From the NCBI RefSeq assembly GCF_042453785.1, contig NC_091666.1, positions 28,168,501 through 28,232,500 on the forward strand: a DNA stretch of 64,000 bases. The letters are read 5' to 3'. Under the pieces are notes generated by a model. It was not told where the DNA came from. It was given only the letters and a program-made list of their open reading frames with translations, and did not search any database. The position numbers were made by a program, and so were the translations under genes. The first letter of the stretch is position 1; the number at the start of each line of letters is the position of its first letter. The DNA is from Malus domestica (taxonomy: Eukaryota; Streptophyta; Magnoliopsida; Rosales; Rosaceae). Of this stretch, positions 5,492 to 50,028 are shown piece by piece.

Positions 5492-6218
5492 GGCCATCTC
5501 TGGCCCTACAAGATTCTCCAAGATATTAATATTTTAATGAACAGTACAGGGCCATATTTGCCTCCGTCTCCAACCGAGGGCCAGAGGGTCAAAGGGCTCG
5601 TTTTAGCCCTGTCACGAAAAGCCGTCTCAAACCGAGGGCCATAGGGCCAAACATAATTTATTATTTAAAAACTACAATTTAATGTTGTATAAATGGCTTA
5701 GGAAGTTATACGAAAAAAATAGAATTGAAAAAAAATATGAAACAAATTTTGTGAAATAGAAGTTATAGGAAAACAAATATGAAACAAAATTTGATTCATA
5801 TGAAAAGGAAAAAAAAAGGGAAAAAAAGAAGTTTAAATTCATTAAAAAAAAAAAGAAGTTTAAATTCATTAAAAAAAAAAAAAAGAGGCCTAATAATCCA
5901 ACGGCTACTAGCCGTTATATTAAAAAACATTTCAAACTATTAGTGTCGGTTATAACCGACACTAATAGTAGAACTATTAAAAAAAAAAGAATATCTTTAA
6001 TGTTGTCGGTTATAATCGACAGCAATAGGAAATCATTAAAAAAAAAATAGCCAGCCCGGGGCTGGCTGGCTGGCCGAAAGCAGCCAGCCCTCCAGCCCTC
6101 TCCGATCCCGTGGGGCCCTCCCAGATTCCAGATTCCTCTGGCCTAGCCCTCGGTTGGAGACGATTTTAGGGCTATTTTCGGCCCTCTGGCCCTCTGGACC
6201 CTTCGGTTGGAGATGGCC
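5492..6218. mobile_element. MITE, PIF/Harbinger-like, 727 bp, TSD TAA
   Basis: Inverted ends GGCCATCTC...GAGATGGCC are flanked by an exact 3-bp duplication TAA (5489-5491 and 6219-6221). TWA-type 3-bp targets are the PIF/Harbinger signature. It sits inside a TELO2 exon: WFLPSDL is on one side and GPAGAGPW on the other, and removing the element plus one TSD restores the reading. It contains short palindromes with GTCGGTTATAACCGAC (near 5944). Related copies lie at 33828 and 62721. Confidence 0.85.
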
Positions 6219-6675
6219 TAAGTCGCTAGGCAGGAACCAAGCTTTGGTCTCTGACGTGGTTGATACGAGCGGCTTAGCCTGTGTAGGCCTTATAATTTTG
6301 GAATGAGCAAGCTCCTGAGCAGCCTCAGTCATGACATCAAGTATCAATATGCATTGACTGATATCCACTTTAGGTGAATAAAGTAGTTTGTTTAATGTCT
6401 CAACAGATTCCAATGGGCATGTGACAAGCAAAGCAACCAATGCTTTTTGTCTCGTCTTCAGCTGATCTTCCTCACCTTCTACAGCCAAGCCAGAACAACG
6501 AAGCTGGACAAGTGTTCTCACAAAATCACTGGCTACGTGCTTGAGCTCATCAGGTGATGCTCGGACAAGTTTTTCAGCAACACCAAGAGCATTCTCCACC
6601 TGCAATATGAAAATAAAATTAATGATCCAGGAGCCAAGGATAATATTCATCCCGCTTGTGTAATTTACTACCAAT

Positions 6676-7380
6676 GTTCTAAAAATGGGCCTAGACGACG
6701 CTAGACGGTGAAGGCCCGCTGCGGGGCAAATCATTTCGAAAAGTCAGTCTGGAGCTAGGCAGTCCTAAACGACTCCTAGGTGGCAGGCTAGGCGGTCCTA
6801 AGAGGTCTTTTTATTTTTATTTTTTATAATTAATTGCGTGCTTTCTTTTTTTGGTTTCATGGCGGTATATTTATAGAAATGGTGTACCTAATTTGCAAAT
6901 GATGGATTTACTACAAGTTCATTCAATAGTAAAACGAATTGGAGCACCTTTGAGGAGATACATACAAAGAAAAGAAATAAATTAGATACAACAAGGTTAA
7001 ATAATTTAGTCTATTTCCAATCCAATGCAAGGATCATGAACAAGAAGAATTTAGTCTATCATCCAAGAATACTCCTTATTATGATTATATGCTTACTGTT
7101 TTTTAAATATTGAACTTTTTGGATGTATATACTTTGTGTATTCTTCTACTTCTATTTTTGCATTTTATCATTCTTTTATTATCCATACAAGTATAGTTTT
7201 TTTTTTAAGTGTAAATAAGCACTTATTTACAAGTTATATAATAAATTTATATAAATCCGCCTAGGCCGCCTGGGCGCCCACCTAGACCCCGCCTAGCCGC
7301 CTAATCACTAGGCCCCGCCTAGCCGCCTAGGCACTAGGCCCCTACTCTCCTCCCGACTAGCGCCTAACGTTTTTTAGAAC
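6676..7380. mobile_element. Non-autonomous TIR-type repeat rich in CGCCTAGGC motifs
   Basis: It lies in the TELO2 intron and has inverted ends GTTCTAAAAA (6676-6685) and TTTTTAGAAC (about 7371-7380). Next to each end are GC-rich stretches with repeated GCCTAGGC and CGCCTAG motifs, around an AT-rich middle of about 500 bp. No clean target duplication was seen. The right end recurs at 26462-26530 in TELO2 copy B, so insertion predates that duplication. Shorter related pieces lie at 45714-45830 and 58018-58140. Confidence 0.55.
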
Positions 7381-10333: not shown

Positions 10334-10338
10334 GAGAC

Positions 10339-11328
10339 TGTAGACATCGAAATTTCGGTAAATAAATGTTGACCGATAAATCAAAGTGTCAACGCTCATG
10401 TATTACATAAATTTTACACGTAGCGTGTGACTCAACGAAAATTGAAATGAGTTAGAAAAGTCATCAAATAGGACACGTGTCAACACCTGGCAGAAACGAC
10501 TTATTTCATCTGGAATATTATATTCAAAATTAGGCCTTGGAAAATTCTATAAATACAAGCCCATTTCATTCATTTAAGAGAAATTCATATTACACCTTGA
10601 AGCTCTGAAGCTCTGAAACCCCGAAGCTCTCAAGCATCTAGGTTCCCGAAGAATCAAGAAAGCCTTCTTCGTTCTTCGTTCATCGTTCTTCCAAGATCAA
10701 GCCTCGACGGCCCTTGAAGAAAGTGTTCTTCGTTCTTCGTTCATCGTTCTTCCAAGATCAAGCCCCGACGGCCCTTGAAGAAAGCACCATCGTTCATCAT
10801 CCGTTCATCCAAGATCAAGCCCCAACGGCCCTTTGGATCAACAACGTCGACAAATCCACACATCCAACCGTTCTTCAAGATCAAGCCCAAAAGCCCTTGA
10901 AGATCCGTTCATCATTGTTCTTCAAGATCAAGCCCAAAAGCCCTTGGAGATCCGTTCATCACTATTCTTCAAAGATCAAGCCCAAAAGCCCCTTTGAAGA
11001 TCCGCTCAAATCCACCTTCAAGATCAAGTCCACGGCCCTTGGAGATCCGTTCATCACTATTCTTCAAAGATCAAGCCCAAAAGCCCCTTTGAAGATCCGC
11101 TCAAATCCACCTTCAAGATCAAGTCCACGGCCCTTGAAGAACGTTCATCCTTAGATCAAGCCCAACGGCCCTTTGGATCAATCACACGTCCACAAATACA
11201 CACCTTACGGAGATCGAATCAGAGGATCAAAATAGAGAGAGATTGTAACCCAAAATCATCAAATACATAATATTTGTTTGTGCACGTCATTCTTGTCTCT
11301 TTCGTTTCAGGAATTTTCCGTGTTCACA
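10339..11328 (+). repeat. 5' LTR of the Ty3 element
   Basis: Begins TGTAGACATCGAAATTTCGG and ends CCGTGTTCACA. It contains about ten imperfect modules of 40-50 bp built on TTCAAGATCAAGCCC.A.GGCCCTTG.A.ATCCGTTCATC (roughly 10690-11180). A 5-bp target repeat lies outside. Confidence 0.92.
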
Positions 11329-11407
11329 AATTGGCACGCCCGGTGGGACAATCTCTGCCTCTCATCTCTTTTTCCGTTCAAGAAATTCAAGCGCACTTCC
11401 AAAATTA

Positions 11408-13357
11408 ATGGCATCAATGAAGGCTCAAACTGTTCCCGCAACCGGCGCAAAGAACAAAAGCGTCCTCGTCGCAACTGGTGTCACTTTGGGCATCACGACT
11501 CGAAGCATGGCAAGAGCTACTTCTGCCGCCTCTTTCACCTCTGCATCAACTCTGCCAAGGGAACAAAAACACCCAAGGCACGAGCCTTTGATCACCTTAG
11601 CCTCACTAAGGGCACCAAGGGGGGAAAGCCCAAGGAAATACTCCGAATCCATGCTCTCCGATGCCGATTCAAGCGACAGTTTAGCCATGCAAGTCATGAC
11701 CATTGGAGCAACTTCAATCGATGAGCAGCTGGCTCAAATGAATGAAGCAATCGCAAGGCTAACCCGAACTGTGGAAGAAAAAGACTTGCAGATTGCAGCA
11801 CTAGTCAACCGACTGGAGGTGCAGGACGGCGATAAACCCGACCCAGAGGATGATCCACTAAAGGGAGGAGCTGGTGGAGACGAAGAACCCCCGGTGAAGA
11901 AAATCGATGGGAAGCCGGAGCCAGACCAAGCAGCGGCACTCATGGGATCTCTTTCTATCCAGCAGCTGCAGGAGATGATCACCAACACCATCAAGGCACA
12001 GTACGAAGGGAGCTCACACACCTCCTTGTTCTACTCGAAGCCCTATTCCAAGAAGATTGATGCCCTAAGGATGCCAAAGGGTTATCAACCACCAAAGTTC
12101 ATGCAGTTTGATGGAAAAGGAAACCCAAAGCAGCACGTTGCCCACTTCGTTGAAACTTGCAACAACGCAGGAACCGAAGGGGATTACCTCGCCAAACAGT
12201 TTGTGCGCTCGCTGAAAGGAAACGCCTTTGAGTGGTACACAGACCTAGAGCCCGAGTCCATCAACAGCTGGGAGCAATTAGAGCGGGAATTCCTCAACCG
12301 CTTCTATAGCACCCGCCGCACTGTGAGCATGCTAGAGCTGACGAGCACGAAGCAGTGGAAGGACGAACCAGTCATTGACTACATCAACAGATGGCGCACT
12401 CTAAGCCTCGACTGTAAAGACAGGCTCTCGGAAACCTCTTCAATCGAGATGTGCATCCAAGGCATGCAATGGGGTTTGCAATACATCATTCAAGGCATTA
12501 AACCACGGACTTTCGAGGAATTGGCCACTCGCGCCCATGACATGGAGTTGAGCTTCGCCCATCATGGGAAGAAGGAACCGATCGCCGACTACAAGAACGA
12601 CAAAGTTCTTGGGACAAAGGGGGAAAAGGCTGCATGGAAACCCACCAAAGAAGCGATGACGGTCAACACAGCTCCCGTCAAAATATCCACACGAGGCAAG
12701 GCGATTCAAACCGAAGCTTTTCGTGATCAAGAGATGCGTAGACGCACTTTGAAGGAGCTTGAGGAGAAGACTTATCCATTCCCCGACTCTGATGTGGTTG
12801 CCATGCTAGATGACCTGTTGGACAAGAAGGTGATCAGTTTGCCTGAGTGCAGACGGCCGGAAGAGATGAATCGTACCGATAGTCCAAGATACTGTAAATT
12901 CCACCGCTTCATCAGTCATCCGACAGAAAAATGTTTCGTGCTGAAAGATCTCATCATGAAGCTGGCTCAGAAAGGAATCATCGAGCTAGATCTTGACGAA
13001 GTGGCGAAATCAAACTATACCACCTTCACTTCTGGCTATTCCGACTCAAAGTTTTCACCTCAACCGCTGGGGGCATCCTCAAAGACAAGCAAAGTTGAAG
13101 GATGGACTCAAGTCACTCCTAAGAAATTGCACAAGAAGCATACGTCTCATCCACATGTCGGCCAATCGGAAAGGGGGCAAGGTAGCTCTTGTCAACCTTC
13201 AAAGCAACATGAACGTGTTGAAGATGATGAAATTTCGACACATAGATCGTCCATCCCCATCACGATGCGCGATTTCTTTCCTGAAGACTTCTTCAATCAC
13301 TCAGTCAAAGCTCCTTGCTATGAAGATTGCGAGGAACGACTCTCCCGGATCGCTTGA
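11408..13357 (+). CDS. gag: gag polyprotein of the Ty3 element
   Basis: One open frame of 649 residues directly after the 5' LTR and primer-site region. The N-terminus is Ala/Ser/Thr-rich, followed by a coiled-coil stretch (residues about 102-138, DEQLAQMNEAIARLTRTVEE). The capsid-type retrotransposon gag domain spans about 225-380 (FMQFDGKGNPKQHV, FEWYTDLEPESI.SW..LEREFLNRF). A CKFHRFISHPTEKC zinc-knuckle-like motif lies near 495. Gag forms the particle that packages element RNA. The frame looks whole and no pol follows it. Confidence 0.88.
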   Translation: MASMKAQTVPATGAKNKSVLVATGVTLGITTRSMARATSAASFTSASTLPREQKHPRHEPLITLASLRAPRGESPRKYSESMLSDADSSDSLAMQVMTIGATSIDEQLAQMNEAIARLTRTVEEKDLQIAALVNRLEVQDGDKPDPEDDPLKGGAGGDEEPPVKKIDGKPEPDQAAALMGSLSIQQLQEMITNTIKAQYEGSSHTSLFYSKPYSKKIDALRMPKGYQPPKFMQFDGKGNPKQHVAHFVETCNNAGTEGDYLAKQFVRSLKGNAFEWYTDLEPESINSWEQLEREFLNRFYSTRRTVSMLELTSTKQWKDEPVIDYINRWRTLSLDCKDRLSETSSIEMCIQGMQWGLQYIIQGIKPRTFEELATRAHDMELSFAHHGKKEPIADYKNDKVLGTKGEKAAWKPTKEAMTVNTAPVKISTRGKAIQTEAFRDQEMRRRTLKELEEKTYPFPDSDVVAMLDDLLDKKVISLPECRRPEEMNRTDSPRYCKFHRFISHPTEKCFVLKDLIMKLAQKGIIELDLDEVAKSNYTTFTSGYSDSKFSPQPLGASSKTSKVEGWTQVTPKKLHKKHTSHPHVGQSERGQGSSCQPSKQHERVEDDEISTHRSSIPITMRDFFPEDFFNHSVKAPCYEDCEERLSRIA

Positions 13358-13365
13358 CGAACCAA

Positions 13366-13905
13366 CAGTGCTCCTTGTTCGCATGAGCCTAAACTGCACG
13401 AACCAAAGCTCCTTGTCCGCACGAGCCTAAACTGTAGGACACAAAGCTCCTTGTCCGCACGAGCCTAAACTGTAGGACACAATGCTCCTTGTTCGCACGA
13501 GCCTAAACTGCATGAACCAAAGCTCCTTGTTCGCACGAGCCTAAACTGCACGAACCAACGCTCCTGGTCTGCACGAGCATAAAAGGCAACACCAACGCTC
13601 CTGGTCTGCACGAGCATAAAAGGCAACACCAAAGCTCCTTGTCTGTAAGAGCCTAAACTGCAAGACACAAGGCTCATCGCCTACACGAGCCTAAACTGCA
13701 TGGCACAACGCTCCTGATCCGCACGAGCATAAAAGGCGACACCAACGCTCCTGGTCTGCACGAGCATAAAAGGCAACATCAACACTCCTGGTTTGCACGA
13801 GTTTAAAAGGCGACACAACATGCTCCTTGCCTGCACGAGTTGAAACTGCAAACGACACCAAATTCTCCTTGCCTGCACGAGTTAAAACTGCAAACGACAC
13901 AAAAA
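13366..13905 (+). repeat. 37-38 bp minisatellite, about 14 copies, inside the Ty3 element
   Basis: Units read roughly GCTCCTTGTCCGCACGAGCC followed by TAAACTG and a variable ACACAA or ACCAA spacer. About fourteen copies run from 13366 to 13905. Two subtypes alternate: CCTAAACTG and CATAAAAGG. The spacing is too short and the units too divergent for a CRISPR array. Confidence 0.85.
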
Positions 13906-14152
13906 GAAAATACCAAAAAATATGTATGTATTTGAACTACGTTTTGACTTGATCTCTTTCTTTGGAAAGGGTACGTAGGCAACTCAAGCATTCAATTTTT
14001 CGAGTTCAGTCACATCAAAAAAAAAAAGAGAATAAATGTTTTATTAAAAAAGGTCAATTTTATTACAAATTTATTTTGTTAAGAAAATTTGCAATTTTCT
14101 TTGTACAAAATTAAATTACAATTTCTTCAAAAAAAAAAAAGGAAATATATAT

Positions 14153-14315
14153 ATGTCTGTCTCGGCCCAGCAGCAGAAGGACATGCAGACGAACAACAGG
14201 TTCGTCATCGAGCACATGCCCAGGAGCCCAGAATGTCTGTCTCGGCCCAGCAGCAGAAGGACATGCAGACGAACAACAGGTTCGTCATCGAGCACAGGCC
14301 CAGGAGCCCAGAACC
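14153..14315 (+). repeat. Two-copy direct repeat of about 81 bp
   Basis: Two almost identical copies, 14153-14233 and 14234-14314, starting TGTCTGTCTCGGCCCAGCAG. It lies between the minisatellite and the host-derived segment of the Ty3 element. No gene recognised. Confidence 0.85.
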
Positions 14316-14659
14316 GGTTGATGCCATTAGATGCAGCCCAGACCCTTCAAAACTATAGACCAAATCTGGGCCCGGCTCTCAAAGCCCATCTTCACTCGTC
14401 TCTCCCTCAACACCCAATCGGATCTTCCTCCCCTCTATTGAAGAAGTAGCAGCCATGCCGTCGCAGGAGTACATGGAGCTCGATCGACTTGAACGAGTGC
14501 AAAATGTACAAGACCGAGTCGGTCGGCGAGCCCACTGGTGAAGCCGCTGTCGATTTAGACTGATGACAAAAGGTACCAACCCAATCTTGACCTTCAAGCA
14601 CCTCCAGATCTACACACCCTCTCATCTGCTCTCTCTCTCCCTCAGTTGGAGGCCATGGC

Positions 14660-15700
14660 GTCTCGTAGATCCCCGGTAGTCCTGGCGATCTTCCTACTTC
14701 TTGGCGATCTTCCTACTTCTCGTCCATGGCGGCCCTAACCCGCCTATCAAAACCCTCATTCTCCTCCGATCTCGGCGACTCGGGTTTCGATTCCGGTTCA
14801 TTTGGTGGATTTGGATCGACGAGAAGGACCGTACTGGCTCTGAAATCGGATCCACTGAAGCCCCGACTGGACCATATCCGGAAGCAGGCGGACGATCATC
14901 GGACCCTAGCCCTAGCGTACGCGAACTGTGCGCGGAAGCTGAAGCTCGAGAAATCGAAGCTGGTTCGGGTCTTCGCCGATCTCTCACGGAACTACTCGGA
15001 TCTCATGAACAAGCCCGCCTATCGCGCTCTGTTCGAATCCGACGCTCTCAACATCGACGAATCGGTGTTGCGGCAGTTCGAGAAGGAAGTAAAGGAGCGA
15101 ATCAAAGTAACTAGACAAATAATTGCTGAAGCGAAAGAGTCTTTCGATAACCAGCTCAAGATTCAGAAGCTGAAGGACACCATTTTCCAAGTGAATGAGC
15201 AGCTGACGAAGGCTAAGAAGCAAGGGGCTTTCTCGAGCTTGATTGCTGCGAAATCAATCCCCGAGAGCTTGCATTGTGTGGCAATGCGGCTAATGGAGGA
15301 GCGAATTACGCATCCGGATAAGTACACTAATGAAGGGAAGCCGATCCCACCGGAAATTGAGGATCCCAATCTATATCATTGTGCTATATTTTCGGATAAT
15401 GTGATTACAGCATCAGTGGTGGTGAATTCGGCCGTGAAGAACGCCAAGAAGCCATACATGTGTCCCATGTCGTGACTGATAAGATGAACCTCGGAGCAAT
15501 GCAGGTTATGTTTAAGAGCAAGGACTATAATGGGTCACATGTTGAAGTGAAGGCTGTGGAGGATTACAAGTTTTTGAATTCTTCATATGTGCCGGTGCTA
15601 AAGCAATTAGAGAATGCAAAGTTGCAATCGTTTTACTTTGAAAATAAGCTCGAGAATGCAACCAAAGACGCAACAAACATGAAGTGCAGGAACCCCATCT
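14660..15700 (+). pseudogene. GAUT8/QUASIMODO1-like galacturonosyltransferase fragment inside the Ty3 element
   Basis: GAUT8 is a Golgi type II GT8 enzyme needed for homogalacturonan (pectin) synthesis. The translation covers the N-terminal stem and the start of the catalytic part: FGGFGSTRRTVLALKSDPLK, RKQADDHRTLALAYA, LSRNYSDLMNKP, EKEVKERIKVTRQ, KQGAFSSLIAAKSIP, LYHCAIFSDNV..ASVVVNSAVKNA, then VVTDKMNLGAMQVMFK and FLNSSYVPVLKQLE up to NATKDATNMK. The GT8 DDD motif and the C-terminal half are absent. No intron is visible over about 975 nt of coding match, which suits RNA-mediated capture, but GAUT8 intron positions were not checked. As part of the element it is not an intact gene. Confidence 0.85.
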
Positions 15701-17205
15701 TCTACGTCGGCGAGAATCGGATCTTCTGTTGCAGCCTGGATCTATCCAATTTCTTCGGGCGCGAGTCTCTGTTTCGGAAATTGGAAACCGACCCGTATAT
15801 CCTTAGGAAGCAAAGATCAGTAAGCAAGAAATCGGTCGGTTCGTCTTCGAATTTCTCACGGCGAAGCTCCTACAGGCCCAAGAAGCCCAATTGGCGTTTT
15901 CTCCTTCATCGTGCCTTCAACTTGCAACTCACCATATGCCACGGGCCAGCCCAGTGCCGTCAACAATTACCACCCTCATGGTCATCACACTTATCATCAT
16001 CATCATCAATACACGGCGCCACATGATCATGTAGAACATCATCGTAGCAGAGTCCACTCAGAAGAAGATGACGGTAGCGATGACGGCCAGTGTTACTTCT
16101 CCGATGTCTTTGCAGCCGCAGCAGCGGAGCAGCAAGCAGCACAGGAGGAAGGTGTTTCTTTGAACTGCCTTGAGCCTCGCTCTTCGCCGTGCATTATTTC
16201 GGTTCCAAACCTTCGTCCCCGTCAAACGCCGTCACTTCTGAAGATTCTGACGGTGATGGTGCCACCAAAGGCTCTGTCTCCTTCACTGCAGCTGCAACTT
16301 CACTTGACGATTTAAAATGCGACTTTGGGAGTTGGATACTGTCTTCCTCTGCCATGGCTGCTCCTTCTGCTCACCCTCCCCCTGCAAATCAAATTTCAAT
16401 AAAAAAATAAAAATAAAAAATAAAAAAATGATGCTGCATGTCGGTCCAGTAGTGCAGCGGACGGCGAGAGTGCAACGGAGCGTAGCAAGGCAGCCTCCTT
16501 TGCAGTAGACAGCCACAACCTCACTGGTGCATGCTCCATCTCTGTCGTCTTCATCCTTGCCTCGCAGCTGCCACCAACTTCAAAGACCGCTGTCAAACGA
16601 CTAGCCGGCCGAGAAGCTCTTCATTAAACTGCACCTCCCCCGTCAACACCTCCCCCGATCGCAGCAGCAACCATCCTCGCCGTCTCTGCCGCAACGGCCT
16701 CAGCCTTCGCCTTCCTCCTGCGTGCTCCACGAATCCATGGCCACCCAGTTATCGTCGTCTTCCTCATCGGCTGCGCTGCTGATCCTGGACACCAACCTCT
16801 GCGCCAGAACTGTCATCAAGGGCACCGACGACGCCATGGCTGCTCCTTCTGCACTCTTGCTCCGCTCCCTGCAGATTCATCTACCCATCGTCCAAATTTA
16901 TACAGAAAAAAAATAATAATAAAATATAATTAAAAAAAAAAAAAAAAAGGTGGTGGTGCATCTGGCACCACGTGAAAAAGAGGAATGGTGGATCAAAGAT
17001 GGGGTACAGCCCCATGGCAGATCAAAAGTTTCTGGTGGTGCATGGGCACCATGTGCAGAAAGAAAAAAAAATTGTAAAAAAATAAAAATAAAAATAAAAA
17101 AATAATTAAAAAAAAAAAAAAAAAAAAACAAATGCATAGAGAGAAATAGAAGGTCCATTTTATTTATTTTTTCTGGAAATTTTACAAATTTACAAGAGGG
17201 GATAT
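15701..17205 (+). other. Chimeric, unrecognised part of the Ty3 element
   Basis: Sequence downstream of the GAUT8-like piece has higher GC to about 16900. It encodes short coding-like stretches, such as a His-rich HHTYHHHHQY with DGSDDGQCYFSDVFAAAAAE (15970-16140) and a Ser-rich SKPSSPSNAVTSEDSDGDG (16200-16260). They look like host-derived coding sequence of another origin, but I cannot name it. From 16900 to 17140 the sequence is A-rich with two long A runs. No gene claimed. Confidence 0.4.
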
Positions 17206-17823
17206 TCAAGGACGATCAAGTGGCGCCTCACAACTCGGCAGAGCTCCAGGAAGAGAAGGCGTCGGAGGTTGGCTGTTTGAAGCCTCAGCAGTCGGTACAG
17301 CCCCAGAAGACGAAGGTAAATGCTGCTGAAACAAACCCACAAACCTCCGATGATCAAGTAAAATCTGACCATCAGATTCCTGCATCTGGTCAATTTTCCT
17401 TTTCATGTTTGTGGCATAGTTGTGTGCAAGCTTGTGCAACTGTTTATTCTCATGCTTGAGCCCTCTGATCTCCTGTTTGAGACTCATCACTTCAGCCGCC
17501 AACGATTCAACTTGACGAGTTCGAGCAAATAGGCGTTGGGCCATGTTGGACACAGAACCCGCACACTGCACACTAAGGGCCAGAGATTCCTTAACAGCCA
17601 ACTCATCAGACCGTTTGGAAAGCAGTCTACTATCTTTGGGAGTGACAAGGTTCCGGGCCACCACCGCAGCGGTCATATCATTCTTCATCACCGAATCCCC
17701 AACGGTAAGAGGACCAGTAGGGGATACGAATGAGGGGCGCCATATGTTGTCGGGGGAAGGCGGGACTGCCTCTTCACCAAGGTTCAAATCAAAACGACGG
17801 TCGGAGGGTCCAGACATTTTCAA
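17206..17823 (-). CDS. Antisense additional ORF of the Ty3 element, coiled-coil protein
   Basis: An open frame of 205 residues opposite to gag, between the host-derived segment and the 3' LTR. It starts MKMSGPSDRRFDLNLGEEA. A long heptad-like coiled coil occupies about residues 95-150 (RQVESLAAEVMSLKQEIRG, KHENKQLHKLAHNYATNMKR), followed by a Pro/Ser-rich tail. Additional ORFs in antisense orientation at this place are known from Tat-group elements such as Grande and Retand. Their role is unknown. The frame is open over its full length, unlike nearby sequence. Confidence 0.7.
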   Translation of the reverse strand: MKMSGPSDRRFDLNLGEEAVPPSPDNIWRPSFVSPTGPLTVGDSVMKNDMTAAVVARNLVTPKDSRLLSKRSDELAVKESLALSVQCAGSVSNMAQRLFARTRQVESLAAEVMSLKQEIRGLKHENKQLHKLAHNYATNMKRKIDQMQESDGQILLDHRRFVGLFQQHLPSSSGAVPTAEASNSQPPTPSLPGALPSCEAPLDRP

Positions 17824-17999
17824 AGGTGTTGAAGAAAGAAGAGGTCGGACATATCAAGATCTTAGAAGTGCAAGAAGGGAGTTTCTGCAAGCGAAAATTC
17901 AAGTGTGCTTTGAAACGAACTGCGTGGCTCTATAAAAATCAGGACTCGACGGGATTTCAGAGATCGAAGAGGCGAGCTCAGAATTCGAAGAGGCCATTC

Positions 18000-18960
18000 A
18001 AAAATTGAAGAGGCAAGCTCAGAAATCGGAGAAGCATCTTGCTTTTCCAGACGCGTCGGCACCCGTCACACGTAAACTCAGCTTTGCGGAAATCACGGGT
18101 AATTCGTCGAAGCGCCAATCCCAGATATCGAAGAGGCGCCAGTCTTTTTCAGCCGCGTCATCACCTGTCATATGCACACTCAACTTTGCGCAAATCACGG
18201 ACAATTTGTCGAAGATTTTCGGTGAAGGAGAAAGCACGTGAAGTTTACTGTTCAATCACGCGTTAGTTGCCGACACGAGTGAAAGAATAGTACCTCTACA
18301 GGTATTAAGGGACCTCCTATAACTGTCCACCTTCACCTTCCATAGCAAGGCAGACACACAGAGTCTTTCTTCATCTCCAAAGATGCTTTCCCAACGAAGC
18401 CTCTCGAGTCATTCAGTGTTCCTTATTCCTTGGGGTACCTCTGCAAGCCAATGACTCCAAAGCAAAAGTATCTCATATCACCAGGGTAGAAAGCAAGAGT
18501 ATCTCATATCATGCGTTCTCCCTGTCCTTTCCTTTGTCCTTGTTCTTACCTACAAAGACAAGGATAAAGAAAACAATATGCCGGAACTTCCACTCAAACT
18601 CGGGTAAGGAACCGACTGCTTGGAACCCTTCCCTGATTGCCTACCTAGCACTGCTCTCGAGTACTCGCCTTCCATTGTTGCTGTACTTTCAAAGAAGCTG
18701 CCACATCTGCCTGAAGAACAGATAAGGCAAGTGAAAATGATACCTTGCAGCATGTGGAGACAAGGTGCAGAAGGAACAAGCAGAGAAGAATGCGGTCTGC
18801 ACGGTCAACTCAGCAGAAGGAGTCCGAACTGAGGAACTCGAGAAGCTGCCATATCTACCTGAAGAAACAAGCAGAGAAGAATGCAGCATGCACAGTCAAC
18901 TCAGCAGAAAGAGTCCGAGATGAAGAACTCGAGAAGATGTCGCATCTGCCTGAGGACAGT
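18000..18960 (+). repeat. Internal duplications in the 3' part of the Ty3 element
   Basis: Two kinds are visible. At 18020-18215 a unit of about 95 bp (TCGAAGAGGC...CGTCACACGTAAACTCA then TTTGCG.AAATCACGG) is present twice. At 18690-18950 a unit of about 100 bp (GCCACATCTGCCTGAAGAA...AGCAGAGAAGAATGC, then GTCAACTCAGCAGAA) is present two to three times. Further modules resembling the LTR repeats (TCAAGCCTCGACGGCCCTTG) occur at 19195-19540, so LTR-type modules also lie outside the LTR. Confidence 0.7.
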
Positions 18961-19619
18961 GAACTTGTTTTGACCCTCAAATTCTTGGGTCGACTTACTA
19001 GGCGTTGTGGGCTGCACGTGCCGATTCACCACCCTTGAATCGAATCCTTAAAGATCAAGTCACCAACTGGAAGAAGAGTTCATCAATCTTGAAGATCATA
19101 CCGTTGACCAAACTGCTCAGGTGTGAATTAGAAAGATTGAACAAAGAAATAGGTTGTCACCTTTACCTCGTGCCTGCTTGTCATGTGTTCGAGTCAACCT
19201 TCAAGAATCAAGCCTCAACGGCCCTTGAAGAAGCTTTCAGCCAAATTCGAAATCAAGCCTCGACGGCCCTGGAAGAAATCACAAGTCTGATTCAAGATCA
19301 AGTGTCTACCACCCTTGAATCCAAACCTAGTTCAAGAATAAGCTGTGGAAAATCAACAATTGGAGGAATCCAGAAAATCCTCCAACCCAGTTCAAGATCA
19401 AAGCTGTGGAAAGTCAACAAGCGCAACAAAATACGTGCCGATTCATCCACTACCAAAGCCAAAAATCATCTACCACATGAAGCTCCTTGTGGTCTAATTT
19501 CAACCTTCAAGATCAAGCCTCGACGGCCCTTGGATCGACATCTACAGTAAGGGACTTCAAAACACATCTCCTACACGTGACAAGCACATGTATACGACGT
19601 GCCTTGAAGTGGGGGCATT

Positions 19620-20657
19620 TGTAGACATCGAAATTTCGGTAAATAAATGTTGACCGATAAATCAAAGTGTCAACGCTCATGTATTACATAAATTTTACAC
19701 GTAGCGTGTGACTCAACGAAAATTGAAATGAGTTAGAAAAGTCATCAAATAGGACACGTGTCAACACCTGGCAGAAACGACTTATTTCATCTGGAATATT
19801 ATATTCAAAATTAGGCCTTGGAAAATTCTATAAATACAAGCCCATTTCATTCATTTAAGAGAAATTCATATTACACCTTGAAGCTCTGAAGCTCTGAAAC
19901 CCCGAAGCTCTCAAGCATCTAGGTTCCCGAAGAATCAAGAAAGCCTTCTTCGTTCTTCGTTCATCGTTCTTCCAAGATCAAGCCCCAACGGCCCTTTGGA
20001 TCAACAATCATCCACCAATTCAAGATCAAGCCCCGACGGCCCTTGAAGAAAGTGTTCTTCGTTCTTCGTTCATCGTTCTTCCAAGATCAAGCCCCGACGG
20101 CCCTTGAAGAAAGCACCATCGTTCATCATCCGTTCATCCAAGATCAAGCCCCAACGGCCCTTTGGATCAACAACGTCGACAAATCCACACATCCAACCGT
20201 TCTTCAAGATCAAGCCCAAAAGCCCTTGAAGATCCGTTCATCATTGTTCTTCAAGATCAAGCCCAAAAGCCCTTGGAGATCCGTTCATCACTATTCTTCA
20301 AAGATCAAGCCCAAAAGCCCCTTTGAAGATCCGCTCAAATCCACCTTCAAGATCAAGTCCACGGCCCTTGGAGATCCGTTCATCACTATTCTTCAAAGAT
20401 CAAGCCCAAAAGCCCCTTTGAAGATCCGCTCAAATCCACCTTCAAGATCAAGTCCACGGCCCTTGAAGAACGTTCATCCTTAGATCAAGCCCAACGGCCC
20501 TTTGGATCAATCACACGTCCACAAATACACACCTTACGGAGATCGAATCAGAGGATCAAAATAGAGAGAGATTGTAACCCAAAATCATCAAATACATAAT
20601 ATTTTTTTGTGCACGTTGTTCTTGTCTCTTTCGTTTCAGGAATTTTCCGTGTTCACA
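19620..20657 (+). repeat. 3' LTR of the Ty3 element
   Basis: Starts TGTAGACATCG right after the purine tract and ends GTGTTCACA, followed by the GAGAC target repeat. It is 48 bp longer than the 5' LTR because of one extra CAAGATCAAGCC-type module near 19975-20040. Otherwise only a handful of base differences were noticed. Confidence 0.92.
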
Positions 20658-21199
20658 GAGACACCACAACAGCAGGAACAAGGCTTTATAACTTTTTCTT
20701 TTCTGGCAAGTAAATTAAACTGCCCCAAGCTAATACAATAGAAGCTTACTTTTCAACGGGAAGCTAGCTGTACTGTGATCTTCCATGAACCTACTAAAAT
20801 GGAAACAAATTTCTACCCAAATTGTAAGAAACAACAACAACAAATTTCTACCCAAAATATAAAAAAAAAAAAAAAAAACCCTAGCAAATTCATGTTATCT
20901 TCATTATAAAGATGCTTTTGGAGAAGATAAACTACATGCATCCACACATCTGTAAACACACACACCCACTTACTGTTTGAACATCTGCTTCTCTTCCCAA
21001 TTTGCCAGATGTTCCAAGTTCACCTAATGAAAGATAAAACAATTACCATTAGAACTATCTTATCAACGACTGCAATTCCGAAACGGATCAACACAGGCTT
21101 CGAAACACATACAAATCAAAAGGTAAACTCTACAACCTTAGAAACTTTATTAATAAGATAGTTCAACACAGGCTTCGAAACACATACAAATCAAAAGGT
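20658..21199. other. Gene-free flank with a 47-bp direct repeat
   Basis: AT-rich flank of the LTR element. A 47-bp direct repeat (AACACAGGCTTCGAAACACA...) occurs at about 21090-21136 and 21165-21211. No coding sequence recognised. Confidence 0.6.
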
Positions 21200-28711: not shown

Positions 28712-29335
28712 TGTTGTGCGGAATCGTCAAATATGAAACCAATAAGCTAATACAGTAAAATATGACAAGACAAATAATCCAAAGAACACAAGGATTTATA
28801 CTGGTTCGGCGTAAGCCTACGTCCAGTTCCGAGATGGCGAGGAAATTCCACTAATATCAAAAGGAGATTACAAATAGAGTTTTAACTCTCAAACCCAAAT
28901 CCCACATACACCCAATAGCTCTCACTAAAACAAAGAACAAATGGAGAAAATGGAAACATATACCAAATTCCTTCTCTCCCAAAAGCCACAACATGTAGCA
29001 CAAATATCTTTGATTGAGTGATCACTAACAAAGGGGGAAGGCAGCAACTCTATTTAAAATGGGAGAGCCGAATGCTCTCTCCTCTGCTCACTGATTAGAG
29101 CTGTCAACAAACAACTCCCTTTTTTCTCCTCTACTGCCGCTCCCACTTCACCAAAGCATAACCAAAAACATATAATAAACAAAAGGAACAAAACCATAAT
29201 TGCCACATATTCTTTGCCTTTGTAAAAGCCACAAATCAAGGGCTAGACATCATAATGATGTCCCCCTTTTCCTTATTCTATTTTATTAGCCGAAAGGTAT
29301 TTTGGCTTGTTGTCCACTTGGTCACAAATCCAACA
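28712..29335 (-). repeat. 3' LTR (minus orientation) of the copia element
   Basis: On the plus strand it begins TGTTGTGCGGAATCG and ends CACAAATCCAACA. It differs from its partner at a few positions only. Confidence 0.92.
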
Positions 29336-30172
29336 ATCTCCACCTTGACCAAGCTGTACCAAAGCCAACGAAAGTGAACATTTCTCTACCGTCTTCTCCA
29401 AATTTGCAAACCATAAGTGCCTTGATTAAAAAACAAAAGTGATTCAAACGAAGAACTGAAATTCTTCAATATCACCGACAAAAGATCAAGCACACCATAC
29501 CAAAGTTGGACACACAACGAACTCCACCTGCTCACAAACACCATGGTCTTAAACTGCACCAATAGACTCATTCACATAGCATGGCACATTCTCCAAGTCA
29601 AAACTGATTACAAATTTGGCAACAAGGTCTCACATACCACATACAAAAATATGCCCTTCGCTCAAGTTTACCATCATCACATGAGCACCAACAGGACAAC
29701 CAAATTTTAAATTCAAATAATCAGCAGGAGATCCAAAACCATACCTCAACTGGAGTCTTCAAGAAAACTAATTGCAGATGATGGAGACCAACAGACCAAA
29801 TAGCAGTGGCAAACAAATCCAACCAAATGTCCATAGACCAAAGTTAGAAAGCATATGACTTGCCTTCTACAAGAGGGTTCCACACAAATGTTCCGCATTA
29901 GGTGTCTCACTATCAAAACCTTGCAGAACTCAACAAATTGGTCCTCACTGAATACAATTTTACCAAAAGGCAAAACCATACCAATATCCAAAACAAACAA
30001 AAAACAATGAAGAGGCAACTGACAAAACACAAGCACAACATAACAAAAGAATCCTTACAAACTCTTAAATCTCCATATGTAGCGAAGAGATTCAAGAGTA
30101 CCCACAACACCAGATTCCTTTTTTTTTTTTTTTTTTTTTTTAATATTTCAGATCTGGTGTAGCCAACTGTCA

Positions 30173-31003
30173 TCATAGAACAAAGTCGAAGTCGTCATCG
30201 ACGACATTCGCACTCGCACCAGCATTATCTTTCAGTTTTGGGCAATCAACTTTCCAATGCCCTTCCTTGCGACAATAGTTGCATGTGTTGTTTCTGGTCT
30301 TAGACTTCGATCTCAAATTTCCTTTATTACTACCTGAACCATATTCCTTATCTCTGCCTCTTGCTATCAAAGCCTCAGAATGAGAATCATTCAAATTTCC
30401 AAATACTTTGTTCTTTAACTCTCTTGAATTCAAAGCGGCTTTTACATTCTCCATACAAATAGAATCTCTCCCATATAACAAAGTTTCAACAAAATTCGCA
30501 TACGAAGGAGGTAAAGAACACAACAAAATCAAAGATTGATCCTCATCATCAATTTTATTATCCATACTTTTCAAATCCATAATAACCTTATTAAACTCAT
30601 CAAGATGGTTTTGAATAGGTGTACCTTCAGTCATACGGAGAGTGTACAAACGTTGCTTCAAATACAAACGATTGGTGAGGGATTTGGTCATGTATATACT
30701 CTCCAACTTAAGCCACAAACCAGCTGCAGTAGTTTCATTTTCCATCTCACGAAGAACTTCATCAGATAGTGATAACATAATTGCACTATGTGCTCGATTC
30801 AAAGCGTCTTCTTTTTCTTCAGCAGACCAATCTTGTGGCAAGGCTTCCACACCCTGTAGCGCCTTAAGCAACCCTTGTTGAACTAGCACAGCTCGCATCT
30901 TAACCCGCCACAGGCTAAAATCATTCCTCCCATTGAATTTTTCAATATCATATTTCACCGACATATTCGAAGGTTTCATAGACATATTAGTACAAAGCCC
31001 CAA
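30173..31003 (-). CDS. gag: gag of the copia element
   Basis: An open frame of 276 residues. The N-terminal part has FNGRNDFSLWRVKMRAVL and LWLKLESIYMTKSLTNRLYL, the Ty1-copia gag (UBN2-type) fold. A single CCHC zinc knuckle, CNYCRKEGHWKVDC, lies near residues 242-255, followed by an acidic tail DDDFDFVL. It forms the particle and binds element RNA. The frame looks whole and stops before any protease. Confidence 0.9.
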   Translation of the reverse strand: MGLCTNMSMKPSNMSVKYDIEKFNGRNDFSLWRVKMRAVLVQQGLLKALQGVEALPQDWSAEEKEDALNRAHSAIMLSLSDEVLREMENETTAAGLWLKLESIYMTKSLTNRLYLKQRLYTLRMTEGTPIQNHLDEFNKVIMDLKSMDNKIDDEDQSLILLCSLPPSYANFVETLLYGRDSICMENVKAALNSRELKNKVFGNLNDSHSEALIARGRDKEYGSGSNKGNLRSKSKTRNNTCNYCRKEGHWKVDCPKLKDNAGASANVVDDDFDFVL

Positions 31004-31030
31004 GTCGAAACTCAGAGCTCTGATACCACT

Positions 31031-31654
31031 TGTTGTGCGGAAGCGTCAAATATGAAACCAATAAGCTAATACAGTAAAATATGACAAGACAAATAATCCA
31101 AAGAACACAAGGATTTATACTGGTTCGGCGTAAGCCTACGTCCAGTTCCGAGACGGCGAGGAAATTCCACTAATATCAAAAGGAGATTACAAATAGAGTT
31201 TTAACTCTCAAACCCAAATCCCACATACACCCAATAGCTCTCACTAAAACAAAGAACAAATGGAGAAAATGGAAACATATACCAAATTCCTTCTCTCCCA
31301 AAAGCCACAACATGTAGCACAAATATCTTTGATTGAGTGATCACTAACAAAGGGGGAAGGCAGCAACTCTATTTAAAATGGAAGAGCCGAATGCTCTCTC
31401 CTCTGCTCACTGATTAGAGCTGTCAACAAACAACTCCCTTTTTTCTCCTCTACTGCCGCTCCCACTTCACCAAAGCATAACCAAAAACATATAATAAACA
31501 AAAGGAACAAAACCATAATCGCCACATATTCTTTGCCTTTGTAAAAGCCACAAATCAAGGGCTAGACATCGTAATGATGTCCTCCTTTTCCTTATTCTAT
31601 TTTATTAGCCGAAAGGTATTTTGGCTTGTTGTCCACTTGGTCACAAATCCAACA
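31031..31654 (-). repeat. 5' LTR (minus orientation) of the copia element
   Basis: 624 bp, the same length as its partner. It starts TGTTGTGCGGAAGCG on the plus strand. The TELO2 intron resumes directly after the CACAC repeat. Confidence 0.92.
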
Positions 31655-33075: not shown

Positions 33076-34994
<1,919 letters not shown>

Positions 34995-38131: not shown

Positions 38132-41100
38132 GGGTTGTGATTTTCACACACCCTTAATTACCTTTCCCACACCCCTTCTTATTTTTTAATACTTAATTGA
38201 TATCTTACTATTTACTCTTCCATATATACCTTTTTACTTTTTTACTTTTAAAAGTTGTTTTTTATTTTTTGATTGTGTTGTAGATTGGAGTAGCAGCCCG
38301 ATTCTTCCCACTCCCCTGCTTTTTCCCTTGCTTTCTCCCGCTTCTTCCCCAAAACCCAGACACCTCCTGCTTTTTCCCCAAACCCAGACACCTCTCGCAG
38401 CCCGATTCCCTTGCCGTCGCAAATATTTCCACTGCTTCTTCGAAGCCTCCCACTCCCTCCGCCGAGCCCAACGAGACCTATTCTGAAATTTCCACTGCTT
38501 CTTCTCTTTCCGTTCCCCTGTCCTCTTTATTACTTCTTGTGAAAAACCACAATGGATGACCTAATAATAACAGATGAAGAACTCCAGATGAACATTGAGT
38601 TGCAGAAGATATTGGATATGGCATGCAAGGAGGATGGCATGGAAGAAATTTCAGAATGCATTCCTCCTCTTAACACTTTTGATGGTAATTTTCTAAAGTA
38701 TTTTCTCAAATTATTAAGATTGATTTTGGAATTTAGGGTTTTTGTTCTCTTCTTGCCTCAATTTGTTTTTTAGGTTTAGTTTTTTCTTTCCCTAATTTGT
38801 GGTTCAAATGATAATTGAATGAATGAATACTGGTGGTTTAAGATAAATGTATCATGTAACAATGAAGTAACTGAATCCAGGGGAAGAAATAAGAAAATCA
38901 CGAAACTAAGTTTGTAAATGTTTTTGACATCAGAATTTTTTTTACAAGAATAACGAAAAATTAGGCAATGCTCAGAGACTAAGGAGCAAAAGATTAAAAA
39001 CTACCATGCTTACGTGAATGCACCGAGCAATGCTCTATAACATATTTTTCTCTCATGTACACGGCAATGCTCTATAATAGAGAATATTGATTTGTGTTGG
39101 TTTTGGGGAAATTAATTTTCTATTGGAATCTATTGGTCCCCAATACACTTTAACTTAATGGTAAATTGGTATTAGGTTTAATTGTTGTGGTTTTACCTAG
39201 GCTCCATGTTTTGGTGTAAACTTGATATAATGCATACAATGCTTTGGTATAAATTTGATACTTAAATGTCTAGTCCATTGATAAAAAGTATATATTCTAC
39301 ATATATAAATGTGTTGGTTTGTGATATATAGGAAGTCAACCAACGATTGATGAGCCTGATAAAATGCTCTCTTTGTTGGCGAAATGTTTTGAAAGTCGAG
39401 AAGACCTCATCGGGAAAGTTCGTAAGATAGCATTAATGCAAGGGTTTGCAACCGTTATTAGAAGATCTAAGACAAATACATATGTTGCTATTGGTTGTGA
39501 TAGAGGTGGGGATTATCGAGCCTCTAAAACTTCACTAGATGAAAGAAAAAAAAACTCAGGATCTCGCCTCATAAATTGTCCATTTGAAGTCAAGGGGCGT
39601 AAAAAGAAATGTGAAGAATTTTGGAAGCTAGAGATAAAAAGTTTATTGCATAACCATGAACTTTCAAATGACATGTGTGGACATCCTTCTTGTCGTCAAT
39701 TTTCACAAGAGGAAATCTTACGAATTAAAGAAATGAGTAAGGCTGGTATACCACCACGCCAAATTCTATCTTCGCTTCGGCAAGGCAATCCTCATCTTCA
39801 AGTAGTTTCTCGAAACATCTATAATCTAAGAGCTAAGATTGTGAAGGAGAGTCTAGCTGGGCGTCCAGTTATTCAAGCATTATTAGAAGAACTTGGTGAA
39901 GGTGGTTTCACTTATAACATTGAGTATGATCATGAAGGCCACTTGACTCATTTGATCTTTGCTCAACCCTTGTCTATAGAGTTGACCAAGAGCTACCCAT
40001 ATGTTTTTGTGATGGATTGCACATATAAGACCAACAAGTATAAGATGCCATTATTGGATATCATAGGAGTTACAAGTTTCAACACATCCTTTTATTCTTG
40101 TTTTGTTTTCATGCAAAATGAGAAAGAAGAGGATTATGTGTGGGCTCTAAAAATGTTTAGTAAGATTTTGGGAGTTGATAATCATCCTATGGTGATTATA
40201 ACGGATAGGGAGTTGGCATTAATGAATGCTATACGCATTGTCTTTCCGAGTACTTCCAATCTTTTGTGCGTGTGGCATATTGAGAAAAATATACTTGCAA
40301 ATTGTAAAGCTCATTTTGAGGAAGAAGTTGATTGGATTGATTTCATTTCTACTTGGACAATTTTAATCCAATCTCCTAATGAAACATCATTCAATGAAGC
40401 TTGGAGTCGTTTTGAAGTTAAGTACGAGGAGAAGAAATTTGTTTTGAAATATATTCTTGGTACTTGGCTTCCATACAAAGAAAAGTTTGTAAGTGCATGG
40501 TCAGAGAAAGTTACCCACTTTGGTAACCGTGTTACTTCAAGAGCCGAAGGTGCACATGCAACGCTAAAAAAATATCTTCAAGTTTCAACTGGAGGTCTTC
40601 GCGAGGTAAAAGAAAAAATATGCCTTGCTATTGAAAATCAATTTCAAGAAATCAAAACTCAACTTTCAAGTGAAAAAGTTAGAGTTTCACACAAGTTTCG
40701 ACTTCCCTTCTTCAAAGAGGTTGTTACTCATGTATCTAGATTTGCATTGAATGAGTTATATAATCAATATGAAGCATCAAGTTCTTCTGATCTTCCATCT
40801 CAATGTAAGGGTCATTTTCTCAAGACAATGGGTCTTCCTTGTGCTCACATGATTAGAGAGATGAATATTGAAGTCTTGCAACTAAATGACATACATCCAT
40901 AATGACATACATCCATAATGGAGGATTGATAGAAGATTGTTTGTCAATGATCGTCATGTAAGCTTGGACAATGAATAAGATCAAATAAGCGGCCTTCTAT
41001 TAGAGTTTAAAGATAAGTATGAAAAGTTGCCTCTTACTCAAAAAGAGGATACCAAAAGGCAACTTTGTGAATTTATTGATACTTCTCTTCCATTAACTCT

Positions 41101-41990: not shown

Positions 41991-42093
41991 TAATAAAATA
42001 AGGAGAGAACATTACATTCATACATTATTGAGTTAGTAGCTCACCCATGACAAGTGTTGAATTAGAGAATTGAAAAGTAGTTTATTTTTTTTC

Positions 42094-43000
42094 GAGTAAA
42101 CTGTCGGTTTACCCCCTGAACTTTCACCTCACTTTCGATTTCCCCCCTGAACTTTTCCATTGGAAAATTAAGGACTCAAACTAATTTTTTTAGCCAATTT
42201 GCCCCCTACCGTTAGTTTTTCATATATTCCATCCATATTTCCGTTAAGTGAGACCATGTGCACAACATGTGAGGGTAGTTAAGTTATTTCACTCTTAAAA
42301 ATGATTAAAAAACTAAAAATAATAAAAAAAGCAAAACTTTCCCTCTATTTTTTCCCGCTAATTCCTATCCTCGATTTTATTTTTCCCTCTCATTCCTATG
42401 CATGAGAAATGACATATGGTGTTATTGTCTACCATTTTTATTTTCTCTAACAAATTAATAATTTGACAAATGATAATGGTGCTATTGTCTCCAAAACAGT
42501 GCATTAATATAAGAAACCCTAGTCTTTTTTATGGACATGTTTCTTATATTAATGCACTGCTTTGGAGACAATAACACCATAAGCATTTGTCAAATTATTA
42601 ATTTGTTAGAGAAAATAAAAATGGTAGTACATGCTTCAAAAAAAAGATTAACTTAGCTACTTATGAAGACAATAACACCATATGTTATTTCTCATGCATA
42701 GGAGGAATGAGAGGGAAAATTAAAATTGAGGATAGGAATTAGCGGGAAAAAATAGAGGGAAAATTATTATTATTTATTTTCAGTTTTTAATCATTTTTAA
42801 ATTGAAATGACTTAACTATCCTCACATGTTATGCACATGGTCTCACTTAACGGAAATATGGATGGAATATATGAAAAACTAACGGTAGGGGGCAAATTGG
42901 CTAAAAAAATTAGTTTGAGTCCTTAATTTTCCAATAGAAAAGTTCAGGGGGGAAATCGAAAGTGAGCTGAAAGTTCAGGGGGTAAACCGACAGTTTACCC
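42094..43000. mobile_element. Palindromic Mutator-like MITE, copy 1, 907 bp
   Basis: The whole element is one long inverted repeat. The left arm starts GAGTAAACTGTCGGTTTACC and the right arm ends with its near-perfect inverse. Symmetry holds to a centre near 42530 (AAGAAACCCTAG|TCTTTTTTATGGACATG|TTTCTT). The right arm has about 55 extra bases near 42625-42680. An exact 9-bp repeat TTTTTTTTC flanks it (42085-42093, 43001-43009). A transcript would fold into a hairpin of about 400 bp. No coding sequence. Confidence 0.92.
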
Positions 43001-43010
43001 TTTTTTTTCA

Positions 43011-43514: not shown

Positions 43515-45551
43515 TGTTGCTTGTATAATAGAAAGGGGTAAGCTATTGATTTGTACCATTAAATTGAATTTGCTTTATGATCTTCCGTCGACCTTTGGAC
43601 TTTGTTGCAGGTATAAAAGTTGATCCTTACCTTGAGCTCTATCTTCTTGTAAATTTTGGTAGAATTTGGAGTTAGTCTGAAAATTGAGAAACCACCATGT
43701 GTGGCGGCGCGAGTGAAAGTCAAAATTTATGGATTTTGGACAGCGAGACGTTCTCGATGTCCTGAGCCCTTATCCAAAATCCATTCATTACGATGGTTCG
43801 ATTATTCAATTTTTGGAATAATTGACCGCCGTATGATTTTTGTAATTGATGACAATCTAATTGTTGGATTGTCGTACAATTTTTTGAGCATCCTAGTTAT
43901 TAGTTGTTTGATCTTTGAGAACTTATGGATTGGAAATCCGATGTGCTAATCTCCCGAATTAAATAACCTACGTTGTTGACCTTAGAGGACCTACTTATCG
44001 ACGGTTGACTTTTTAGTCAATGTGCCCTATTCTAGAGTGTCGTTGTTATAGAATGTTATTGAGGCTTGATGGAGCTTAGTTGTCTCATTTCAATGGTGTG
44101 TGGTTCTCGGTTGACATGCATCTCGATTTACGTTCAAGTGGCACTTGGTCTCGTTTTATGTGTCGGTCTTATTAAGTTTCTTAAGTGGGGTTTGTGTATT
44201 GTATTAGGTTCCTTGGAGCGGAGTCGGTGAATCCGAAAGTGCAAATAACCCAGGTGAGTGACTTTAATATTATATGATATGGTTATTACCCATGAGAATT
44301 TCCTTGTTATGTACTTTGTGGATATAACATGAATTTACAAATGATTTTATGGAAATGTGTGCCACTATGCTATGTTTACTTGATGATGCTATTGGAAAAT
44401 ATATATATGTTATGCCTGAAAAGATTGTGGTACATGAGGGCTAGTAGAAGACCGTTAACCCAATACATGGGGTAATGTGGATAAAATCAGAATCTGCACC
44501 ATGTAGAAGTGGTACATGGATGGTCGTGCTTGGTTAATCCGCAATGGGGGACCATACTACTTTGGGATCGTGCTTGGTTAATCCAGGATGAGCGATCCTT
44601 ATTATTTAGGTATATCCATACATATTCAGGGGTGATCATGCTTGGTTAATCCGCAATGGGTGATCACTCTCTATTAGTATCAGTAGGAGTGACTCTGCTT
44701 GCTTGGTTAATCCGTTATGGGAGGGGGGGACCACATCCTAATTGGTTACCTATTGTAGGCCTCGGCCAAACTGTGTCTCTCTATAGCCCTAGACTATTTA
44801 TTACATATATGAAAGATGAGATTGAAGGCATGTGTGGCTCAATCTAGAAAGTGAATTGAATCAAATAGTTTACATGATGGTGTTGCCTTAAAGAGAATGA
44901 TTTCGGATGTAACTCATTCCTACTCATAACGAAGAGTTGTAATGATGAAATAGATACCAATCTCATTCCTACACGTGATTGTATTATTGATGTTGTGCCA
45001 TTCATACACAACTTCGGGTTGTGTGATGACTAAGAATGTTGTTAGAAGACGTGTGGTGAGATTCAAATTGATTAACCATTCCTATACGTATAATGAGGTG
45101 TATGGTGGTTAAATTATGAAATATGTGGCAATTGGACCCTTGTGATTATTCGGAAAATGAGAAAGGCTAGTGGTGAGTTACAATTCGAAGAGAATGACAG
45201 AATGATATTGACGGTGATTAAATTGACCCAGTATTCAGAGAAAAGTCATGTGAGGACATAACACTACTTCGTAGCTTATCCGGGTTTTGATTTGCCTGGT
45301 GCACCATTCCCAAGGCGTAGGGTTATTTTGCAAAGCAATGGGTAGAGGTTAGAGAAGAAGGTTGCAGGTTATGCAGCTGTGTGGGCATCGCATTAGAGAA
45401 TAGGATTGCCACCCTTTGTTGTAAGCTATTTCCGCTAAGCTCTGATGTATATTATATGTATGAGTCTCAGTGACTCTTATGTATTTTATATTGTACTACT
45501 ATTGTTCTACCGTCGCGTGTCGATTCCGAACATGTCGATCGGGGCATGACA
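43515..45551 (-). mobile_element. Probable solo Ty3-type LTR, about 2.0 kb
   Basis: This segment is missing from the duplicated arm at 57870, so it is an insertion. On the minus strand it begins TGTCATGCCCCGATCGACAT, a typical Ty3 LTR start, and ends ...AAGCAACA, giving TG...CA ends. No target repeat could be fixed. Inside, GTGCTTGGTTAATCC.CAATGG is repeated about five times (44530-44730). No internal coding region, so a solo LTR or other remnant. Confidence 0.55.
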
Positions 45552-49323: not shown

Positions 49324-49809
49324 TTATTTGAACTATTACGTTAGAAAGTTAAAAGGTTGGTGATTTTTATACTCCTATTTTTTTTTTCCTTATGCGCTCC
49401 TCTTGTTTTGATTCGTTAGTGTTTTGATTTATTAGGCTATGAAAAAGAGGAAGTAGTGCATCGGAGTGTAAAAATCATTTTCCCTCACAGTTTGCCTGTC
49501 CAATCTTATATAGAAGTCCGGCAAAGACAAAATATGCATGCATTGAGATTTTATTTAGTAACTGTGTTTCTTTTGTCTTTTAATGTCCTTTTTGTAGAAT
49601 CAAGCCTCATAAGCACTTGTGAGACTGCAGTGAGTTCTCCTTTGTGCCAGTTGATTTTACGGTGAATCTCGACTTTCGTTATAGTAACAGAGCTGACTAT
49701 ATACGTGTTGAGTGATTCGCCAAGGAAGAATTCGTCTATTGTTTGTGTGTTGTGTGAAGTTGCAAACATTGATCGATCTTGGTTTCTTATTTGCCCTTTG
49801 TGAAATTGA

Positions 49810-50028
49810 ATAATGCCCAAGATTCTATTTATGTAACTGAAACTTATATTATTAATTGCTTGCGTGTGTTTTGATGTAATAATATTGGTTTGGAACTGAA
49901 TCTGTCATTGATGAGAATAATACCCAAGATTCTGTTTGTGTAACAGGAACTTATATTATTGTTTGCTTGCATGTATTTTGATATAATAATATTGGTTTGG
50001 AACTGAATATGTCAGTGATGAGACCAAT
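49810..50028. repeat. 109-bp tandem duplication 3' of NLR 1
   Basis: Two copies of AATA.TGCCCAAGATTCT...GGTTTGGAACTGAATCTGTC...GATGAGA. The same duplication is at 62150-62365 behind NLR 2, so it is older than the segmental duplication. Confidence 0.85.

Follow-up and report, generated by a model that had tools for sequence, protein, structure and literature searches.

A GAUT8/QUA1-like coding fragment lies between the LTRs of a young, apparently gag-only retrotransposon in Malus domestica

The stretch of DNA analyzed here, referred to as the window, spans 64,000 nt, and positions 10339–20657 of it form a plant LTR retrotransposon. The features by which such an element is recognized, namely near-identical paired direct LTRs with TG...CA ends and a target-site duplication of 4–6 bp (here 5 bp, GAGAC, identical at 10334–10338 and 20658–20662), are all present. 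The 5' LTR (990 bp, 10339–11328) and the 3' LTR (1038 bp, 19620–20657) lie on the plus strand, and the LTR sequence begins TGTAGACATC and terminates CGTGTTCACA. Alignment of the pair gave 986 matches over 990 aligned bases, with two of the four mismatches adjacent to each other, plus a single 48-bp gap within a tandem-repeat stretch. This degree of identity fits the description of the element as young in the first-pass annotation. A candidate primer-binding site beginning with TGG (11332–11349, plus strand) is located 3 bases past the 5' LTR, and a polypurine-tract-like sequence (19607–19619, plus strand) directly precedes the 3' LTR.

The plus-strand gag ORF (11408–13357, with its first ATG at 11408 and its stop at 13357) encodes a capsid domain matching Retrotrans_gag (PF03732, E = 4.8e-14) and, at 12893, a CX2HX4HX4C motif. 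A match to Ty3_capsid fell under the cut-off, and the element is probably of the Ty3 type, an assignment based on the gag family PF03732, in place of the order of reverse transcriptase before integrase and the reverse transcriptase phylogeny by which the superfamily is defined. Its gag motif presumably resembles that of the Tat lineage. Members of that lineage are described as carrying an additional RNase H domain (PMC6317226).

For the remainder of the element, ORFs that overlap 11000–19500 and measure 80 aa or more from stop to stop were collected. Of the 34 obtained, 26 were run against Pfam, six with E values up to 1 and 20 (two sets of 10) with E values up to 0.1; the other eight are six ORFs in an LTR or overlapping gag, and two interior minus-strand ORFs (13691–13936 and 16898–17215). 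No Pfam match to a protease, reverse transcriptase, RNase H or integrase was found in these 26 of the 34 ORFs, and every match besides gag was below the curated cut-off. TR-GAG elements are defined by a gag domain unaccompanied by reverse transcriptase, RNase H and integrase domains, and the 26 scanned ORFs show this combination. The element had been called gag-only; this holds for the lack of a pol domain in the ORFs scanned, but an antisense ORF of 203 residues, counted from its first ATG, is also present (17206–17817, minus strand).

The antisense ORF gave weak Pfam matches to coiled-coil-type families, all below cut-off, and Transposase_28, the Retand domain, was absent among its 12 Pfam families with E values up to 1. 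A search of NCBIfam with three proteins returned nothing approaching the cut-offs. The only match among solved structures, to SEC31 (E about 0.3), was put down to chance. In non-plant collections, no relative of the GAUT8-like peptide described below, the antisense ORF or a stretch of gag was confirmed in viral contigs, and none of the GAUT8-like peptide was confirmed in bacterial or archaeal genome contigs. An antisense ORF between the position of pol and the 3' LTR is also found in Grande, RIRE2 and Retand (PMC7264820), from which the present element differs in having an antisense ORF without Transposase_28 and in lacking pol.

Further features were observed elsewhere in the window. A second apparent gag-only LTR element occupies 28712–31654 on the minus strand, with 624-bp LTRs (6 mismatches), the target-site duplication CACAC and a 1,695-bp interior; TGGTATCAGAGC adjoins one of its LTRs, and it encodes a Copia-type gag (PF14223, E = 1.4e-37) and a zinc knuckle. 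Placing it in the TGTT/AACA families of Rosaceae, described as having the atypical ends TG-TT or AA-CA (PMC5659011), was rejected because its ends are ordinary TG...CA. Two 924-bp copies at 42083–43006 and 56005–56928 are 98.5% alike and, from an inverted match of 85%, each nearly palindromic, so that this sequence is possibly a fold-back element. A tandem duplication (45551–50333 and 57862–62692, 91% identical) carries NBS-LRR-like coding sequence in each copy, the first as one open ORF (46297–49323) with Rx_N, NB-ARC (E = 1.8e-66) and LRR domains, and the second split over several frames. The window also contains a MULE transposase ORF (39325–40902, PF10551, E = 8.8e-28), a minus-strand ORF with a Telomere_reg-2 domain (6036–6743, PF10193, E = 1.6e-16), and a repeat of 6004–6219 at 34334–34549 with 88% identity.

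Between gag and the antisense ORF, the element has a composite organization. Gag is followed by a tandem-repeat spacer of ~38-bp units (13358–13904, plus strand), and by an AT-rich linker (13939–14150) with a G+C content of about 0.33 and AATAAA on both strands (14031–14075). A block then extends from about 14150 to 16900, beginning with two plus-strand copies of an 80-bp unit (14153–14313, 98% matches), and is closed by an A-rich linker (17059–17170) with AATAAA in the sense direction at 17081–17098 and in the antisense direction at 17159–17168. In 300-base windows the G+C content of the block is 0.43–0.60, against 0.33–0.34 in the flanking linkers; that of gag is much the same as that of the block (0.46–0.53), so composition alone has no power to mark the block as foreign. 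Additional sense AATAAA motifs occur inside the block, at 16398–16424 and 16918. Since AATAAA is commoner across the window than expected (180 versus 120), its presence on both strands of the linkers is suggestive only.

The downstream part of the block (15697–16948, plus strand) contains A-rich tracts at 16391–16428 and 16894–16948, and the ORFs scanned there stayed below the Pfam cut-offs. Codon-position periodicity was observed in 15589–15888, which partly covers the GAUT8-like segment, and was absent from the next window; another piece of coding sequence may therefore be fused there. Two stretches have related ends (16351–16389 and 16833–16876) that are followed by A-rich tracts and contain a common 20-mer, at 16351 and 16833, and their alignment score of 49 exceeds the maximum of 40 seen in 200 two-base-block shuffles. 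Common starts among the modules of the block were sought in three comparisons, none of which rose above shuffled sequence (the score was reached by 172, 75 and 92 of 300 shuffles).

Upstream of this sequence, at 14822–15696, the block has a region whose translated similarity marks it as a portion of a GAUT8/QUA1-type galacturonosyltransferase, with GAUT8 a nearer match than GAUT9. The element was searched by tblastn with query sequences for Arabidopsis GAUT8 and GAUT9 that were written out rather than drawn from a database. GAUT8 gave two adjoining matches (E = 6e-135), the first aligning residues 12–276 with 14675–15457 (347 bits, 70% identity across 265 columns, the clean part beginning at 14822) and the second aligning residues 278–357 with 15457–15696 (142 bits, 86%), while the best score in 100 mononucleotide shuffles of 14150–16960 was 24.6 bits. 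The first coding part (14822–15457, plus strand, frame 2) has 174 of 212 residues identical to the GAUT8 query, and the second (15457–15696, plus strand, frame 1), past a frameshift, is 86% identical over 80 residues and ends at residue 357 of that query. Over the same stretches, identity is 82% and 86% to the GAUT8 query versus 59% and 68% to the GAUT9 query, the only paralogue compared.

Support independent of these query sequences came from Pfam and from codon-position G+C. With the two parts joined as one query (XX at the break), Glyco_transf_8 was matched with E = 1.9e-4 by the whole and with E = 9.9e-5 (22.5 bits) by the C-terminal part, both under the curated cut-off of 24.3 bits; a score below cut-off may be expected here because only positions 1–80 of the 253 in the profile are covered. 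Glyco_transf_8 was absent from the unjoined ORFs of the segment at E values up to 1. Codon-position G+C is strongly periodic across the segment, and its phase shifts at the frameshift.

The segment runs for ~292 codons without an intron and in the same sense as gag. Its homology changes frame near 15457 and breaks off mid-gene at 15696, leaving no complete GT8 domain in a single frame. Other sequence follows directly, with no poly(A) tail belonging to the segment, and no second copy of it occurs among the window self-matches of at least 80 bases. Further upstream (14655–14821, plus strand), a possible 5' end of the donor shows only loose similarity to GAUT8. It comprises an ATG at 14655, a hydrophobic stretch that begins there, and a tandem duplication of 19 bp; the hydrophobic stretch may represent the membrane anchor of the donor, disturbed by the duplication.

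These results bear out the central proposal of the first-pass annotation, that a GAUT8-type fragment lies inside a young gag-only LTR element: it is enclosed by LTRs with 4 mismatches in 990 bases, together with an open gag and no pol domain in 26 of the 34 ORFs. GAUT8/QUA1-like coding sequence in the sense of gag is upheld by the 347- and 142-bit matches to the GAUT8 query against a shuffle maximum of 24.6, with Glyco_transf_8 below cut-off, and the absence of a visible intron likewise holds within the element over ~292 codons. The interval given for it, 14660–15700, is nearly right at its end, the homology stopping at 15696; at its start, the homology is confident only from 14822 and loose back to 14675.

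Host gene capture by plant LTR elements had been described as rare, a view contradicted by a survey that puts genes captured by LTR elements at 672 for rice and 1,343 for sorghum (PMC3726574; these are the figures of the abstract, and the results section gives 1,343 for rice). Such capture is already known in other plants, and the present locus looks like a new case of it. A limited literature search found no report of a captured galacturonosyltransferase gene. Like the genes of that survey, some of which have small RNAs, the segment is non-TE coding sequence between LTRs, but the survey was genome-wide and dealt with annotated genes, while here there is one broken fragment. The best-known case of host gene capture by an LTR element is maize Bs1. 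With Bs1, the present element shares host coding sequence between its LTRs (14822–15696). Bs1 is an LTR element with pieces of host genes, and transduced pieces are stated in general to be usually in the gag-pol sense (PMC7264820, PMC13317346). It differs in that it reportedly contains segments of three host genes, along with a chimeric gene for which both transcription and translation are described, whereas here one gene was identified and its frame is broken. The TR-GAG elements, one of which transposed in Arabidopsis (PMC6022998, PMC8704663), similarly have LTRs and a gag ORF with no pol domain found; the present element is set apart from them by what its pol region contains, namely coding sequence from a host gene and an ORF in antisense.

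Capture of the GAUT8 piece by the element is the simplest inference and our best reading, within which copying from mRNA by template switching is favored but unproven. Taken as a whole, we put at roughly 60% the probability that this is a non-autonomous gag-only LTR retrotransposon, mobile in trans, in which the place of pol is held by a composite block including a host GAUT8/QUA1 part (about residues 65–357) captured via template switching. In this pathway, reverse transcriptase in the gag particle would switch templates between the RNA of the element and a host transcript packaged alongside it, acquiring the GAUT8 segment, which later copies of the element would carry along. The element would move as a unit, with pol proteins supplied in trans by an autonomous relative, and the segment would be cargo that, being frameshifted and truncated, should make no enzyme. 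The gag-sense orientation and the intron-free ~292 codons fit the demands of a common RNA template. A review covers abnormal template switching among RNAs packaged together as well as host-gene transduction, including that of Bs1 (PMC13317346), and a gag-only Copia element transposes in Arabidopsis ddm1 (PMC8704663). Weighing against this reading are the missing poly(A) tail of the segment, its mid-gene break, a G+C content that fails to distinguish the block from gag, the Pfam match below cut-off and short exact matches, described below, that could equally fit joining of DNA.

We consider the odds about even that the GAUT8 piece is an old, fixed component of the whole retrotransposon family, of which this is an ordinary copy. 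This proposal concerns the age of the capture and is compatible with the other readings. The segment has acquired a frameshift and a duplication at its 5' end, yet only 4 mismatches separate the LTRs over 990 bases, which suggests that capture may predate the present insertion; the failure to find a second copy among the self-matches of the window argues against it.

Rather unlikely, in our assessment, is capture at the DNA level, by which a genomic GAUT8 piece would have become part of the element, or of its extrachromosomal cDNA, through recombination or the repair of a break and without an mRNA step. The block is pieced together, with its 80-bp duplication, its 19-bp duplication and a break inside coding sequence, as such joining might produce. 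Three exact matches of 9, 9 and 12 bases connect the 3' junction region (15694–15726) with the upstream block (14385–14530), a count made without a chance control. The absence of introns would be uninformative, and so without weight against this route, if the donor has none in codons ~65–357, for instance if its first exon spans them. The passages of the GAUT literature consulted give no GAUT8 intron positions; a donor without introns there, together with the exact matches, would fit DNA-level joining. Against it, the gag-sense orientation would be expected only half the time, and no intron was recognized from the sequence of the segment itself. Moreover, the mostly intronless GATL genes have been contrasted with the GAUTs in a passage that gives no positions (PMC7016653), suggesting that GAUT genes do have introns.

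It is improbable that a chimeric GAUT8 retrocopy was nested into an already integrated element. The A-rich tract at 16391–16428, downstream of the GAUT8 segment, could be read as its tail, but it is the 3' half that is missing from the GAUT8 part, whereas an ordinary retrocopy is truncated at its 5' end, and comparisons of 14000–14700 with downstream intervals argue against a flanking duplication. With 16395–16470 or 17115–17170 there is no exact repeat of 9–14 bases (A-rich words excluded); with 16930–16990 there is one A-rich 9-mer only; and with 15690–15905 there are five repeats of 9–12 bases, none placed like a target duplication plus tail.

We give very little credence to a regulatory element, in which putative small RNAs from its transcripts would silence the host GAUT8 gene. 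The nearby antisense ORF is in keeping with it, since the antisense gene of Grande has its own promoter and dsRNA has been suggested for such elements (PMC7264820), and unique small RNAs map to 85 rice and 812 sorghum LTR-captured genes (PMC3726574). However, AATAAA on the antisense strand at 17159–17168 sits between the antisense ORF and the GAUT8 fragment, and antisense transcripts may therefore end before reaching the fragment, insofar as so common a motif can indicate. Equally remote is a multi-gene patchwork, in which several host transcripts would have contributed to 14153–16948. This gap, with gag in sense on one side and the antisense ORF converging on it from the other, and with a two-way AT-rich polyadenylation linker closing each of the two, would be a standing capture site whose dsRNA would act on GAUT8.

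The locus has the appearance of a recently inserted retrotransposon copy that lacks pol and contains part of a cell-wall gene. Should the donor have introns in the stretch that was captured, RNA-level capture by an element dependent on borrowed enzymes would be documented at this one locus; otherwise, it would serve mainly as a warning to annotators against calling a GAUT8 gene at 14822–15696.
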